Positions 1 to 57,497 of a stretch of DNA of 64,000 nt are shown piece after piece. The notes beneath the pieces are model-generated. The model did no database searches and was not told where the DNA came from. It saw nothing but the letters and a program-made list of their open reading frames with translations. The number at the start of each line of letters is the position of its first letter. The first letter of the stretch is position 1. Source of the stretch: a virus; IMG/VR virus record IMGVR_UViG_3300020186_000396, positions 1 to 64,000 of that record; one strand, given 5' to 3'. The translations under genes and the position numbers were made by a program.

Positions 1-562
1 TAGTCTTACCGGTCTTTGGAAGGAGTTTTTCCAAAACTCCTTCGCAAGAAAGTATAATGAAGAAAAGATCTCCTTCCTTCTTTATCTGAATTGTCTTACA
101 TCGTCCTTCAAAAGGACGATGCATATTGATTTTAATGTCTCCAGGTATTCCTCTGATATTCAGCTTGCCATTCGGGAGGAGCTTCGCTCCTCCGGTCTTG
201 AGATCACATTGAGGAAAGCATATTGATTTAAATCGATCAATCGATTTAAATCTAGGAAACCCTGGAGTCTCTCCGCTTTTAATCCTTCTGAAGAAGGATT
301 TAAAAGAGTTATCCAGAGTCTTCAGAACATACTGAAGACTCTGAGAATGTATATTTTGCGTCTCTTTTTCAAAGAGACGCTTTAGTTCTGGTAGTTGATT
401 TGCTTGATCAACATATGATTTTGATTTAGCATATCTTTTGTAAAAAGATATGCGTTCTTCAAGAGCAGCATTATAAAGATTCTTACAGAAATGAAATGAA
501 TTAACCAGCGCTTCGCGCTGGTTTTTATTCAAATAAATTCTATACTTATAGGATCTTCTCAT
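1..562 (-). CDS. tnpB: TnpB RNA-guided nuclease, N-terminal part (runs off window)
   Basis: Open for 187 codons from ATG at 560-562 to the window edge with no stop. The protein starts MRRSYKYRIYLNKNQ, followed by the TnpB helical region (HFCKNLYNAALEER) and GFPRFKSIDRFKS. It then continues in the correct order through GDIKINMHRPFEG, IKKEGDLFFIILSCEGV and LEKLLPKTGKT, the strand just before the RuvC-I Asp. The Asp itself would lie beyond position 1. TnpB is the omega-RNA-guided nuclease of IS200/IS605 elements that helps element retention. Many codons sit in short palindromes. Whether this copy is full length cannot be seen. Confidence 0.8.
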   Translation of the reverse strand, partial: MRRSYKYRIYLNKNQREALVNSFHFCKNLYNAALEERISFYKRYAKSKSYVDQANQLPELKRLFEKETQNIHSQSLQYVLKTLDNSFKSFFRRIKSGETPGFPRFKSIDRFKSICFPQCDLKTGGAKLLPNGKLNIRGIPGDIKINMHRPFEGRCKTIQIKKEGDLFFIILSCEGVLEKLLPKTGKT

Positions 563-648
563 TGCTACTCTATATAACGCATTATATTTTTCTGGAACAA
601 AAATTCATCCCCTCCCTAAAGGGAGGGGGTATTCTTTTTGGAGATCGA
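1..648 (-). mobile_element. IS200/IS605-type tnpB element, copy A, cut by window edge
   Basis: Minus-strand element whose left end lies at 648 and directly abuts TTAT (ATAA at 649-652 on the plus strand). The left end holds the family signature: CTCC, A-run, GAATAC, then the hairpin CCCTCCC-TTTA-GGGAGGG. A tnpB gene starts at 562 and runs off the window at position 1. Compared with the complete copy at 13837-15005, the stretch 1-100 is in the opposite orientation relative to the rest. Here the order is the one expected for TnpB, so this copy shows the ancestral arrangement. Flanked to the right by a terminator. Confidence 0.85.
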
Positions 649-6353: not shown

Positions 6354-6540
6354 CATTCTCCAAAAGAATACCCCTCCCTTTAGGGAGGGGATGAATTTTT
6401 GTTCAGAAAAATATAATGCGTTATATAGAGTAGCAATGTCAACGTGAGTTCATCGTGAACTACCTCGCCCTAGGGCAAGGCTTCTGAAAGTATCCGGCGA
6501 ATTTATTTCGCCGGATATCGCAAGGCTCGTCCCGAGCCCC
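6354..6540 (+). mobile_element. Miniature tnpB-family element, copy B, right half inverted
   Basis: The left end (6354-6438) abuts TTAT at 6350-6353 and matches the other copies through the GAGTAGCAATG start-codon region. From 6439 the sequence is inverted: 17 bases of apparent flank, then the right end read backwards (6456-6540, TGAACTACCTCGCCC to GAGCCCC). Turning 6439-6540 round recreates the miniature arrangement seen at 50352 and 18542. No tnpB coding sequence remains. Confidence 0.8.
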
Positions 6541-13836: not shown

Positions 13837-15005
13837 CAATCTCCAAAAAGAATACCCCTCCCTTTAGGGAGGGGATGAATTTTTGTTCCAGAAAAATATA
13901 ATGCGCTATATAAGAGCATAGCCATGAGAAGATCCTATAAATATAGAATTTATTTGAATAAAAACCAGCGCTTCGCGCTGGTTAATTCATTTCATTTCTG
14001 TAAGAATCTTTATAATGCCGCTCTGGAAGAACGCATATCTTTTTACAAAAGATATGCTAAATCAAAATCATATGTAGATCAAGCAAATCAACTACCAGAA
14101 CTAAAGCGTCTCTTTGAAAAAGAGACGCAAAATATACATTCTCAGAGTCTTCAGTTTGTTCTGAAAACTCTGGATAACTCTTTTAAATCCTTCTTCAGAA
14201 GGATTAAAAGCGGAGATACTCCAGGGTTTCCTAGATTTAAATCGATTGATCGATTTAAATCAATATGCTTTCCTCAATGTGATCTCAAGACCGGAGGAGC
14301 GAAGCTCCTCCCGAATGGGAGACTGAATATCAGAGGAATACCTGGAGACATTAAAATCAATATGCATCGTCCTTTTGAAGGACGATGGTTTAGGATGATG
14401 GAACTTCGTTCCATCATCCGTGGTAATGAAAGAGGTTATGCCAAGATCAATTCCGGTAGTCTTACCGGTCTTTGGAAGGAGTTTTTCCAAAACTCCTTCG
14501 CAAGAAAGTATAATGAAGAAAAGATCTCCTTCCTTCTTTATCTGAATTGTCTTACATATAATAAGATAGCCAATCAGAGATCTGATTGGCAACATAAAGT
14601 TGCCAATCAATTAGTTAAGGACAACGATGTAATCGTTGTCGAGGATTTAAATGTTAAAGGAATGCTCGAAGCCAAAGGCTTCGAGGTATCTAAAGGAAAT
14701 ATAGCGGATGCATCTTGGGGCAACTTTGTTGCCCTCGTAACCTACAAGGCTGAAAGTGCTGGTAGGATCTTGATCAAGGTGAATCCAAAGAACACGTCGA
14801 AGACGTGTTCTTATTGCGGGAATATTAATAAGCTCTTAACCTTACGGAATAGAGTTTACGATTGCGATGCCTGCGGCATCGCCATCGATAGAGATATTAA
14901 TGCGGCAATAAATGTTAGAAGGCTCGGGACGAGCCTTGCGATATCCGGCGAAATAAATTCGCCGGATACTTTCAGAAGCCTCGCCCTTTAGGGCGAGGTA
15001 GTTCA
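13837..15005 (+). mobile_element. IS200/IS605-type tnpB element, copy C (1,169 bp), internally inverted
   Basis: The left end abuts TTAT (13833-13836). The right end is GTAGTTCA at 15005. Boundaries are fixed by restoring the interrupted host gene. It contains tnpB only; no tnpA is present. The ends carry hairpins (CCCCTCCC-TTTA-GGGAGGGG near the left; AAGGCTCG, ATCCGGCGAA and CCTCGCCC stems at the right). The right-end block probably corresponds to the omega-RNA region, with the guide taken from sequence after 15005. The segment about 14388-14555 is inverted relative to copy A, and sequence after it appears deleted. Confidence 0.9.
13924..14991 (+). CDS. tnpB: TnpB, open frame but RuvC-I motif inverted (probably inactive)
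   Basis: A 355-residue open frame. The N-terminal region, RuvC-II (VIVVEDLNVKGML), zinc finger (CSYCGN...CDACG) and RuvC-III (DRDINAAINV) are intact. Between GDIKINMHRPFEG and KIANQRSDW the sequence is not TnpB-like. The reverse strand of this stretch encodes the missing part, including GIDLGITSF with the RuvC-I Asp. About 40 further residues usual after RuvC-I are absent. The inverted stretch happens to remain open on the plus strand. With no RuvC-I Asp it should not cut DNA, though it might still bind omega-RNA. Confidence 0.88.
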   Translation: MRRSYKYRIYLNKNQRFALVNSFHFCKNLYNAALEERISFYKRYAKSKSYVDQANQLPELKRLFEKETQNIHSQSLQFVLKTLDNSFKSFFRRIKSGDTPGFPRFKSIDRFKSICFPQCDLKTGGAKLLPNGRLNIRGIPGDIKINMHRPFEGRWFRMMELRSIIRGNERGYAKINSGSLTGLWKEFFQNSFARKYNEEKISFLLYLNCLTYNKIANQRSDWQHKVANQLVKDNDVIVVEDLNVKGMLEAKGFEVSKGNIADASWGNFVALVTYKAESAGRILIKVNPKNTSKTCSYCGNINKLLTLRNRVYDCDACGIAIDRDINAAINVRRLGTSLAISGEINSPDTFRSLAL

Positions 15006-15077
15006 TAGATAATGGGTTCGACGTTTGGCGCTATAAAATTGAGGCCATTCTTCTTGACGTTAAGGTGAAAAAAGACA

Positions 15078-18541: not shown

Positions 18542-18714
18542 TGAACTACCTCGCCCTAAAGGGCGAGGCTTCTGAAAGAATCCGGCGAATTTATTTCGCC
18601 GGATATCGCAAGGCTCGTCCCGAGCCCCATTGCTACTCTATATAACGCATTATATTTTTCTGGAACAAAAATTCATCCCCTCCCTAAAGGGAGGGGTATT
18701 CTTTTTGGAGAATG
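18542..18714 (-). mobile_element. Miniature tnpB-family element, copy D (173 bp)
   Basis: Minus-strand copy with TTAT (ATAA at 18715-18718) at its left end. It keeps the left end through the tnpB start codon, then joins directly to the last 85 bases (GGGGCTCGGGACGAGCC to GTAGTTCA). The junction ATG-GGGCTCGGG is identical to copy F, so both come from one deletion ancestor. It holds no gene. It lies in the 5' region of the minus-strand gene ending at 18530. Confidence 0.88.
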
Positions 18715-43802: not shown

Positions 43803-43993
43803 TTTTCTCCAAAAAGAATACCCCTCCCCTTACGAGATAGAGTTTATAATTGCGATGCCTGCGGCATCGCCATCGATAGAGATATTAATGCAGCAATAAA
43901 TGTTAGAAGGCTCGGTACGAGCCTTGCGATATCCGGAGAAATAAATTCGCCGGATACTTTCAGAAGCCTCGCCCTTTAGGGCGAGGTAGTTCA
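43803..43993 (+). mobile_element. Miniature tnpB-family element, copy E (191 bp)
   Basis: Abuts TTAT (43799-43802). Only about 28 bases of the left end remain (TTTTCTCCAAAAAGAATACC...), joined directly to the 3' part of tnpB. The retained part encodes RDRVYNCDACGIAIDRD (zinc finger second half and RuvC-III) and the complete right end. The deletion differs from that in copies D and F. The right end lies against the Dps-like gene and supplies its stop codon. Confidence 0.85.
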
Positions 43994-50351: not shown

Positions 50352-50519
50352 CATTCTCCAAAAAGAATACCCTCCCTTTAGGGGGATGAATTTTTGTTCA
50401 GAAAAATATAATGCGTTATATAGAGTAGCAATGGGGCTCGGGACGAGCCTTGCGATATCCGGCGAAATAAATTCGCCGGATACTTTCAGAAGCCTTGCCC
50501 TTTAGGGCGAGGTAGTTCA
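50352..50519 (+). mobile_element. Miniature tnpB-family element, copy F (168 bp)
   Basis: Abuts TTAT (50348-50351). The left end runs to the tnpB start codon, then the junction ATG-GGGCTCGGG to the last 85 bases. Same deletion as copy D. The left hairpin has lost a few bases (CCTCCCTTTAGGGG). The short frame from its ATG encodes the TnpB C-terminal end (LAISGEINSPDTFRSLAL). Downstream lies the gene at 50551. Confidence 0.88.
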
Positions 50520-50537
50520 CAGACGCTATCAATAAAC

Positions 50538-55757: not shown

Positions 55758-57497
55758 ATGAAAACTTTAGTAATTGTGGAATCGCCAGCAAAAGGTAAAA
55801 CGATTTCCAAATACCTCGGCCCTGATTATACAGTCATCGCTTGTTATGGTCACGTCGTTGACCTTGCTAAAGGTGGGAAGTTCGGTATCGGTGTAGATTT
55901 ACTAAATAATCTAGCTCCTCGATACATGATTATGGATGATAAGAAAGAAGTTTTCGACAAGATCGTTAACGCTAGTGAGACATGCGATCAGATTTATCTC
56001 GCATCCGACCCTGATCGTGAAGGTGAAGCTATTGCTCAGCATTTGTTCACGCGTTTGGCGTCGACTGGAAAACCAATTAAGCGTATTGCATTCCATGAAA
56101 TAACAAAGACCGAAATCCTTAAAGCCGTTGCAGCGCCACGTGACATCGATTTGAAATTGTTTAAGGCACAGCAGGCTCGCCGCATTCTTGATCGCCTCGT
56201 TGGATTTATGGTGTCGCCATTTTTGATGAACGTGTTCGGTCAGACCATGTCAGCCGGGCGAGTTCAATCAGTAGCGGTTCGCATGATTGCCGATCGTGAA
56301 ATCGCAATAAAGAATTTCGTGCCGGTTGAGTTTTGGAATGTATTTGCAGACCTGACCACACCAGCTGGCGAAAAGATGCGCGTCAAGTATGCCACGGCAT
56401 TAGGTAACAAGGCCGATACCGATGCGGTCCTGGCAAAGCTTACAGGGCATCCGTTTGTGGTCAGCGCTGTCATTCGCAAGCCTAAGAAGGAAAGTCCACC
56501 GCCACCGCTGACAACCCTAATGATGCAACAGATCATGTCTAAGAAACATGGGTTCAGCGCCGAACAAACGATGCAGGCTGCACAAGCGTGTTATGAAAGC
56601 GGGTATACGACTTACATTAGAACCGACTCTGTTAGACTCGGCGACGATGCTGTAAAATCCATTCGACAATACATCAAAACAACCGGATACTCGCTACCAG
56701 CCAAGGCTATAGTTTATGAGTGCAAGACTACCGCCGCTGACAGCCATGAAGCTATTCGTTGTACGAACGTCAACACTGATCCGGCAACGTGCATGCTTAC
56801 CGGTAACGATAAAATTCTGTACGACGTAATCTGGAGATATTCCGTGGCTTGCCAAATGGAACAGGCCGTGTTCGATACGATGGAAGTACAAGTTACTTGT
56901 AATGGCGAACTGTTTAAGATTACTGGTAAAACACTTTCTACTAAAGGATTTTTCGAAGTCCTAGGCCTTCCTCCGAAGGATAAGTTCGATATTCCTAACC
57001 TTAATAAAGGCGATTCATTTACCTTGAATAAGGTCGTGCCAGAACAAAAAGCAACTCAGCATCCGCCTCGTTTTACAGAAGCTAACTTGATCAAAGAGCT
57101 TGATGCAAGACAGATCGGCCGCTCATCTACGATGGCAACTATTCTGAAAAACATCAACGCTCGCAATTACGTTGTCAAGAATGGTAATACGTATCATCCG
57201 ACCGACCTAGGACTTCAAGTAACGGCAATGCTAAACAAATCGTTTGGATTTGTTAATTTTGATTACTCAGCCGCTATGGAAGCTAATCTTGATAAGATTG
57301 CGGCCGGTGAAGCCGATTACGATACTGTTATGACTGAGTTCTTTTCTTTATTCTCTAAAGAATTGAAGTCAGCAATAAACGGCGAGAATAAGATATGTTG
57401 TGAACGGTGTAATGGAATAATGGTAGAGCGTGATGGTTCTCGCGGTAAATTCCTATCATGTGCAGGTTGCAGAAACAGTCAGAACATTGCGGCGTGA
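55758..57497 (+). CDS. topA: DNA topoisomerase I (type IA)
   Basis: 579 residues, short for bacterial TopA (about 700-860) because only one zinc finger is kept. TOPRIM: VIVESPAKGKTISKYL and DPDREGEAIAQ. AQQARRILDRLVGFMVSP and SAGRVQSVAVRMI form the gate domains. SGYTTYIRTDSVRL carries the active Tyr. FTEANLIKELDARQIGRSST and a C-terminal CCERCNGIM...CAGC finger follow. It relaxes negative supercoils. A TATA box lies at 55729, although here the start (55758) is farther than in the other cases. Confidence 0.95.
   Translation: MKTLVIVESPAKGKTISKYLGPDYTVIACYGHVVDLAKGGKFGIGVDLLNNLAPRYMIMDDKKEVFDKIVNASETCDQIYLASDPDREGEAIAQHLFTRLASTGKPIKRIAFHEITKTEILKAVAAPRDIDLKLFKAQQARRILDRLVGFMVSPFLMNVFGQTMSAGRVQSVAVRMIADREIAIKNFVPVEFWNVFADLTTPAGEKMRVKYATALGNKADTDAVLAKLTGHPFVVSAVIRKPKKESPPPPLTTLMMQQIMSKKHGFSAEQTMQAAQACYESGYTTYIRTDSVRLGDDAVKSIRQYIKTTGYSLPAKAIVYECKTTAADSHEAIRCTNVNTDPATCMLTGNDKILYDVIWRYSVACQMEQAVFDTMEVQVTCNGELFKITGKTLSTKGFFEVLGLPPKDKFDIPNLNKGDSFTLNKVVPEQKATQHPPRFTEANLIKELDARQIGRSSTMATILKNINARNYVVKNGNTYHPTDLGLQVTAMLNKSFGFVNFDYSAAMEANLDKIAAGEADYDTVMTEFFSLFSKELKSAINGENKICCERCNGIMVERDGSRGKFLSCAGCRNSQNIAA

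Follow-up and report, generated by a model that had tools for sequence, protein, structure and literature searches.

A phage IS200/IS605-type tnpB gene filled with short perfect palindromes, probably written by repeated template switching

The element and its tnpB gene

The window analysed here (64,000 nucleotides) is the first part of a 100.7-kb virus record, IMGVR_UViG_3300020186_000396 (G000), and contains an IS200/IS605-type element whose only cargo is tnpB.

13837..15006 (ends approximate), + strand: IS200/IS605-type element, copy c1, placed by the aligned ends of several copies and a search of its own record
13924..14991, + strand: tnpB reading frame, 355 aa, from Pfam matches and the ORF list
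14388..14557, - strand: inverted block of about 170 bp, whose minus strand reads CKTIQIKKEGDLFFIILSCEGVLEKLLPKTGKTTGIDLGITSFITTDDGTKFHHPK, the middle of TnpB that is missing from the + frame

Alignment of copy ends places the left boundary of c1 at about 13837, after a TTAT-like target, and its right terminus, ...GTAGTTCA, at about 15006. The left end was defined by other copies in the record, in which the hairpin CCCCTCCCTTTAGGGAGGGG follows the TTAT-like target. The ends, with subterminal hairpins on both sides, no terminal inverted repeats and a fixed left target, are those of a tnpB-only (IS1341 type) member of the family. No match to PF01797, and hence no Y1 TnpA, was found in the source record or in a sister record, IMGVR_UViG_3300020192_000010 (G001). 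The presence of several copies implies that the element has moved, putatively as single-stranded DNA (ssDNA) through a Y1 TnpA, which is presumed to act in trans.

The frame encodes an N-terminal HTH, a partial OrfB and C-terminal TNB/zinc-finger domains. PF07282 (E 2.8e-23) and PF12323 (E 2.5e-7) match above the cut-off and PF01385 (E 1.3e-6) is divided between the + and - strands. The + frame of c1 lacks the catalytic RuvC-I motif GIDLG, which is encoded on the minus strand of 14388-14557, reading ...LPKTGKTTGIDLGITSFITTDDGTKFHHPK; the minus-strand ORF of this block gives a weak PF01385 match (E 0.0017). Downstream of the block approximately 37 codons have been deleted (profile gap 200-236), and when the pieces of c1 are rejoined in TnpB order they fit the family profile end to end, minus these 37 positions. 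The left breakpoint of the inversion is the exact end of the palindrome at 14365-14387, and in a second long copy (c2) HRPFEGR is followed by the block in its normal orientation. Copy c1 has undergone an inversion plus a deletion, and is predicted to be nuclease-dead because GIDLG lies within the inverted block and about 37 codons are missing; its + frame nevertheless remains open. Decayed copies are common in the IS200/IS605 tnpB family.

An array of perfect palindromes

The following hairpins are found in the element, those within the inverted block being given in the TnpB sense.

13855..13874, + strand: left-end hairpin CCCCTCCCT-TT-AGGGAGGGG; loop AA in the G001 copy L089
13963..13983, + strand: arm 9, loop TTC; loop GAA, the exact reverse complement, in c2
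14033..14057, + strand: arm 11, loop TAC
14106..14128, + strand: arm 10, loop GAA
14143..14172, + strand: quasi-palindrome, arm 12, loop 6; one mismatch in c1 (14166 A), perfect in c2 (G, synonymous)
14186..14205, + strand: arm 9, loop TC
14234..14261, + strand: arm 13, loop TG
14293..14311, + strand: arm 8, loop GAA; contains GCGAAGC
14365..14387, + strand: arm 10, loop TTG; borders the inversion on the left
14393..14419, - strand: arm 12, loop GAA in the TnpB sense; encodes DDGTKFHHP
14475..14499, - strand: arm 11, loop GGA in the TnpB sense
14569..14590, + strand: arm 10, loop GA
14583..14609, + strand: arm 11, loop 5; overlaps the palindrome at 14569-14590
14620..14640, + strand: arm 9, loop GTA
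14665..14685, + strand: arm 9, loop AAA
14718..14734, + strand: arm 7, loop TTT
14788..14812, + strand: arm 11, loop GAA; encodes KNTSKTCS, a conserved zinc-finger stretch
14864..14882, + strand: arm 8, loop TGC; encodes CDACGIA; one base breaks the L089 version
14919..14937, + strand: arm 8, loop GGA; kept in short derivatives
14942..14968, + strand: arm 11, loop 5; L089 and the 43.8-kb copy have one synonymous mismatch (GGA)
14979..14998, + strand: right-end hairpin CCTCGCCCT-TT-AGGGCGAGG

A previous sequence-only reading had described a tnpB gene filled with palindromes and listed 17 of them; all 17 were re-detected at essentially the same positions, together with further hairpins at 13855-13874, 14186-14205 and 14583-14609 and the one at 14143-14172, which is imperfect by one base. 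When perfect inverted repeats are defined by an arm of at least 7 and a loop of at most 5, the tnpB frame (13924-14991) contains 18, with arms of 7-13, compared with a mean of 0.52 and a maximum of 4 in codon-shuffled versions (n=1000); permutation of synonymous codons with the protein kept gave a maximum of 6 (n=2000). At the stricter cut-off of arm >=8 and loop <=5, the frame retains 17 repeats, equivalent to 15.9/kb, against 0.51/kb for the rest of the window, a remainder that still includes deletion derivatives of the element; the density in G001 is 0.25/kb (arm >=8, loop <=6). Of 219 other tnpB coding sequences, all distinct and taken from viruses or GTDB genomes, 195 have no repeat with an arm >=8, 20 have one and four have two. 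The hairpins span the whole element, one per approximately 50 nt, and when folded as DNA, 13924-14387 has a z-score of -11.0 (relative L002: -2.0). As the sequence-only reading had noted, neighbouring phage genes carry no such excess, and this suggests a cause peculiar to the element. One candidate palindrome-rich relative, L043, was rejected since its repeats represent a TA repeat outside tnpB.

Arms, loops and coding constraint

All 170 arm pairs in the perfect hairpins are Watson-Crick pairs, with no wobble. Allowing G-T pairs extends one hairpin by a single pair and adds two chance matches. The arms are all-or-none, the sole near-miss being 14143-14172. Loops are mostly of three bases, as had been noted before: 13 of the 18 have 3 nt, three have 2 nt and two have 5 nt, and there is no tetraloop. 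Triloops are far more frequent than among hairpins of other loci (36/281; p=6e-8). The loop sequences GAA and TTC, previously singled out, are indeed common without being universal; ten of the 13 array triloops are GNA or its complement TNC, compared with 15 of 36 elsewhere (p=0.05). GNA triloops form extra-stable DNA minihairpins (Yoshizawa 1997, as cited in PMC6479982).

The palindromes were also said to spell normal TnpB residues, which holds in general, with the exception of the inverted stretch 14388-14557. Both arms encode residues that remain family-like, for example in the zinc-finger stretch KNTSKTCS and in CDACG, and no left/right asymmetry in residue typicality, which would mark an overwritten arm, was seen. 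Columns occupied by arms are less conserved than the others (0.41 vs 0.64 bits). Repeats in codon phases 1, 2 and 3 number 7, 9 and 3 respectively, 14143-14172 being counted, so that phase 3, the most constraining kind (PMC6649704), is the least populated, albeit on small numbers.

Other copies and derivatives

Further copies, none of them remarked upon in the sequence-only reading, which had likewise passed over the internal inversion, are present in the same virus.

1..645, - strand: second long copy c2, cut off by the contig end; middle block in normal orientation
6354..6538, + strand: derivative in which the right end is turned around with respect to the left end, a further product of rearrangement
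18542..18714, - strand: PATE-like derivative in which deletion of the tnpB core has joined the left end to the right, from a search of the own record and end alignment
43806..43993, + strand: deletion derivative in which tnpB, starting at 14840, directly follows half of the left-end hairpin
50352-50523, and record position 89435-89608: similar PATE-like derivatives

The metagenomic contig of the record begins inside c2, which is 97% identical to c1 over q3-551 and 100% identical over the block part. In the 43.8-kb derivative the junction falls inside the left-end hairpin, and the PATE-like derivatives, consisting of both ends only (the name is taken from PMC3119063), are scattered across the virus. 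Sister record G001 contains one deletion derivative (L089) and two end fragments. The tetranucleotide profiles of the two records are similar (r 0.81-0.87), so G001 may belong to the genome of the same phage.

Two differences between copies are exact inversions of a loop: c1 has TTC at 13972-13974 where c2 has GAA, and in the left-end loop (13864-13865) it has TT where L089 has AA. Both flips occur against an overall divergence of only about 2-3%, and exact reverse complementation of a loop between close copies is a mark of template switching. When the flipped loop is excluded, eight of the ten c1/c2 differences in the N-terminal coding part are at third codon positions, a sign of past purifying selection on TnpB. 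The two copies differ at 1 of 182 arm positions and at 10 of 341 spacer positions; the lower value for the arms is not significant (p=0.11). At three arm sites one or another of the copies departs from perfect pairing, which is therefore not enforced all the time. Three clustered c1/c2 differences (14319, 14321 and 14322) create a 5-bp hairpin, CTCCC-GAAT-GGGAG, at 14312-14327 in c1 only, possibly a fresh template-switch event.

Searches for relatives returned little. DNA-level searches of phages and plasmids gave no match, a scan with the N-terminal half of c2 gave no relative, and the element was absent from 28 viruses, most of which share the terminase. End-hairpin patterns and the unique palindromic KNTSKTCS pattern recovered only G001 and one unrelated end from viral contigs. 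The best protein relatives in viral contigs and GTDB genomes show only 29-47% identity. Neither a pre-palindrome ancestor nor a close outgroup was found, the close copies being confined to the source record and G001 and all of them palindromic.

Several other genes of these records may be mentioned. An SbcD/Mre11-like phosphoesterase adjoins an SbcC/Rad50/SMC-like ATPase (record G000 64454-67803; L090:454-3803). In bacteria the SbcD and SbcC pair cuts DNA hairpins, and the phage pair is relevant because the same genome carries a hairpin-filled element. The terminase large subunit is split by an intein with a LAGLIDADG endonuclease (record G000 95112-97799; L091:12112-14799), and relatives are found in viruses with contigs of up to 435 kb. 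A type IA topoisomerase is encoded at 55758-57494 of the window, and in G001 a TubZ/FtsZ-like tubulin gene (L089:5154-6491) adjoins the deletion derivative.

Origin of the palindromes

Two readings had been offered on the basis of the sequence, selection for folded ssDNA or RNA and template-switch repair, and the data favour the latter. We consider it probable that repeated fold-back template switching at DNA minihairpins wrote and perfected the palindromes, under selection on the protein. According to this model the element, carried by a large phage, would still be active or have been so recently, and would pass through an ssDNA stage, presumably as an excision circle or as lagging-strand template while the phage replicates. 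Short seeds of stems that enclose a stable loop of three bases (GNA-type) or two would snap back, and the growing or complementary strand would use one arm as the pattern for its partner before rejoining its template. The outcome would be perfect arms of 8-13 bp, flipped loops and occasional longer inversions or deletions, of which only TnpB-compatible changes would survive; this protein filter would leave arms where the alignment columns are tolerant and the codon phase is 1 or 2. Template switching is favoured because the arms are Watson-Crick without wobble and all-or-none, because loops flip exactly between copies, because the copies differ by the inversion of a 170-bp block that breaks where a palindrome ends, because triloops are in excess (13/18 vs 36/281), and because arms lie in less conserved columns with phase 3 the least used. 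Against it stand the lack of a pre-palindrome ancestor, the absence of TnpA from both records, the non-significant difference between arms and spacers, and the arm sites that are imperfect in some of the copies. Most of the 219 other tnpB genes have presumably also moved as ssDNA and are without an array, so an ssDNA stage alone is insufficient; our guess is that some feature of how this phage replicates, together with many ssDNA cycles, sets this element apart.

The hairpins might instead have been selected as DNA structures, the covered strand resisting nucleases, coating by SSB or RecA, or reannealing, and thereby aiding survival of the ssDNA or excision. The coverage of the whole element at about every 50 nt and the folding z of -11 agree with this, as do the loop length and, on the coding sense, the largely GNA type, which match very stable DNA minihairpins as described in the work cited in PMC6479982. 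Such selection should however permit G-T pairs and mismatches, yet the arms are all-or-none, the copies tolerate changes that break arms, and the array is missing from the other IS200/IS605 tnpB genes (219); we therefore regard selection on DNA structure as possible but unlikely. A shade less likely still is the stronger proposal of a coding strand armoured along its entire length with DNA minihairpins that are kept because they aid a single-stranded life cycle, with simultaneous selection on protein and ssDNA folding. Selection on the mRNA or guide RNA, through slower translation, a block to ribonucleases or extra guide-RNA scaffolds, fits poorly because wobble pairs are lacking and the loops are of 2-3 bases. 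In its favour, the usual site of the guide-RNA scaffold in TnpB systems is overlapped by the three right-end hairpins, which are kept in the short derivatives. There are, however, zero G-U pairs among 170 arm pairs and no tetraloop, loops of two bases suit RNA poorly, and no Rfam family matched at its curated score, the sub-threshold matches being chance ones only. This RNA-level explanation is disfavoured and appears improbable.

Two further explanations have very little to recommend them. Small palindromic insertions comparable to the Rickettsia palindromic elements, which occur inside genes (as cited in PMC6649704), are already largely refuted: those elements are inserted and mutually related, whereas the palindromes described here are unlike one another in sequence and the TnpB profile alignment has no matching insertions, except a short one at 14293. 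Equally implausible is an origin by chance, composition bias, or an assembly or amplification artefact. The source is a metagenomic contig that starts within a copy of the element, but shuffles fail to reproduce the array, the neighbouring genes are normal, and the array is present in independent copies and in a second contig, with differences that are biased to third positions.

Comparison with known systems

The nearest precedent is provided by mitochondrial genes of Nematomorpha (PMC6649704), which, like tnpB here, contain perfect coding inverted repeats in which both arms encode normal residues, which are all-or-none and in which phase 3 is disfavoured; the authors of that study likewise favour conversion or template switching. 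The Nematomorpha repeats are longer (mean 43 bp, arms of up to 142 bp) and genome-wide in the mitochondrion, whereas those of the phage tnpB have arms of 7-13 bp and loops mostly of 3 nt and are confined to one mobile element; with a longest arm of 13, the array contains none of the arms >15 bp that would be Nematomorpha-like. In yeast genes, ten spacer inversions, several with the same letters as ours, have been attributed to template switching (PMC8604942). These resemble the phage tnpB in their TTC/GAA and AA/TT flips, perfect 10-11 bp repeats, 2-5 bp spacers and location in coding DNA, but are isolated sites spread over many genes rather than about twenty sites in one. Template switching has also been described as making RNA hairpins with perfect stems in a single event (PMC8794818), as proposed here, although that work concerns RNA genes and not a transposon reading frame.

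Known IS200/IS605 tnpB elements and PATEs (PMC3119063, PMC8612924) share with this element the tnpB gene, subterminal hairpins, the lack of terminal inverted repeats and short two-end derivatives. Their hairpins lie near the ends, and a tnpB-wide array was seen in 0 of the 219 genes examined. The earlier suggestion that internal hairpins are undescribed for tnpB is supported only by their absence from these genes and from the open-access literature.

Significance

Coding palindromes are already known from Nematomorpha mitochondria (PMC6649704), as is template switching from yeast and RNA genes (PMC8604942, PMC8794818). If the template-switching explanation is correct, the phage tnpB would be a natural record of the process acting repeatedly on one gene, with about twenty hairpins, loop flips and an inversion in a 1.07-kb frame whose residues remain family-like. 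It is a candidate test bed for the origin of palindromes and for the tolerance of proteins to them, and could allow a test of the link, suspected for a long time, between the formation of palindromes and transposition through single strands.
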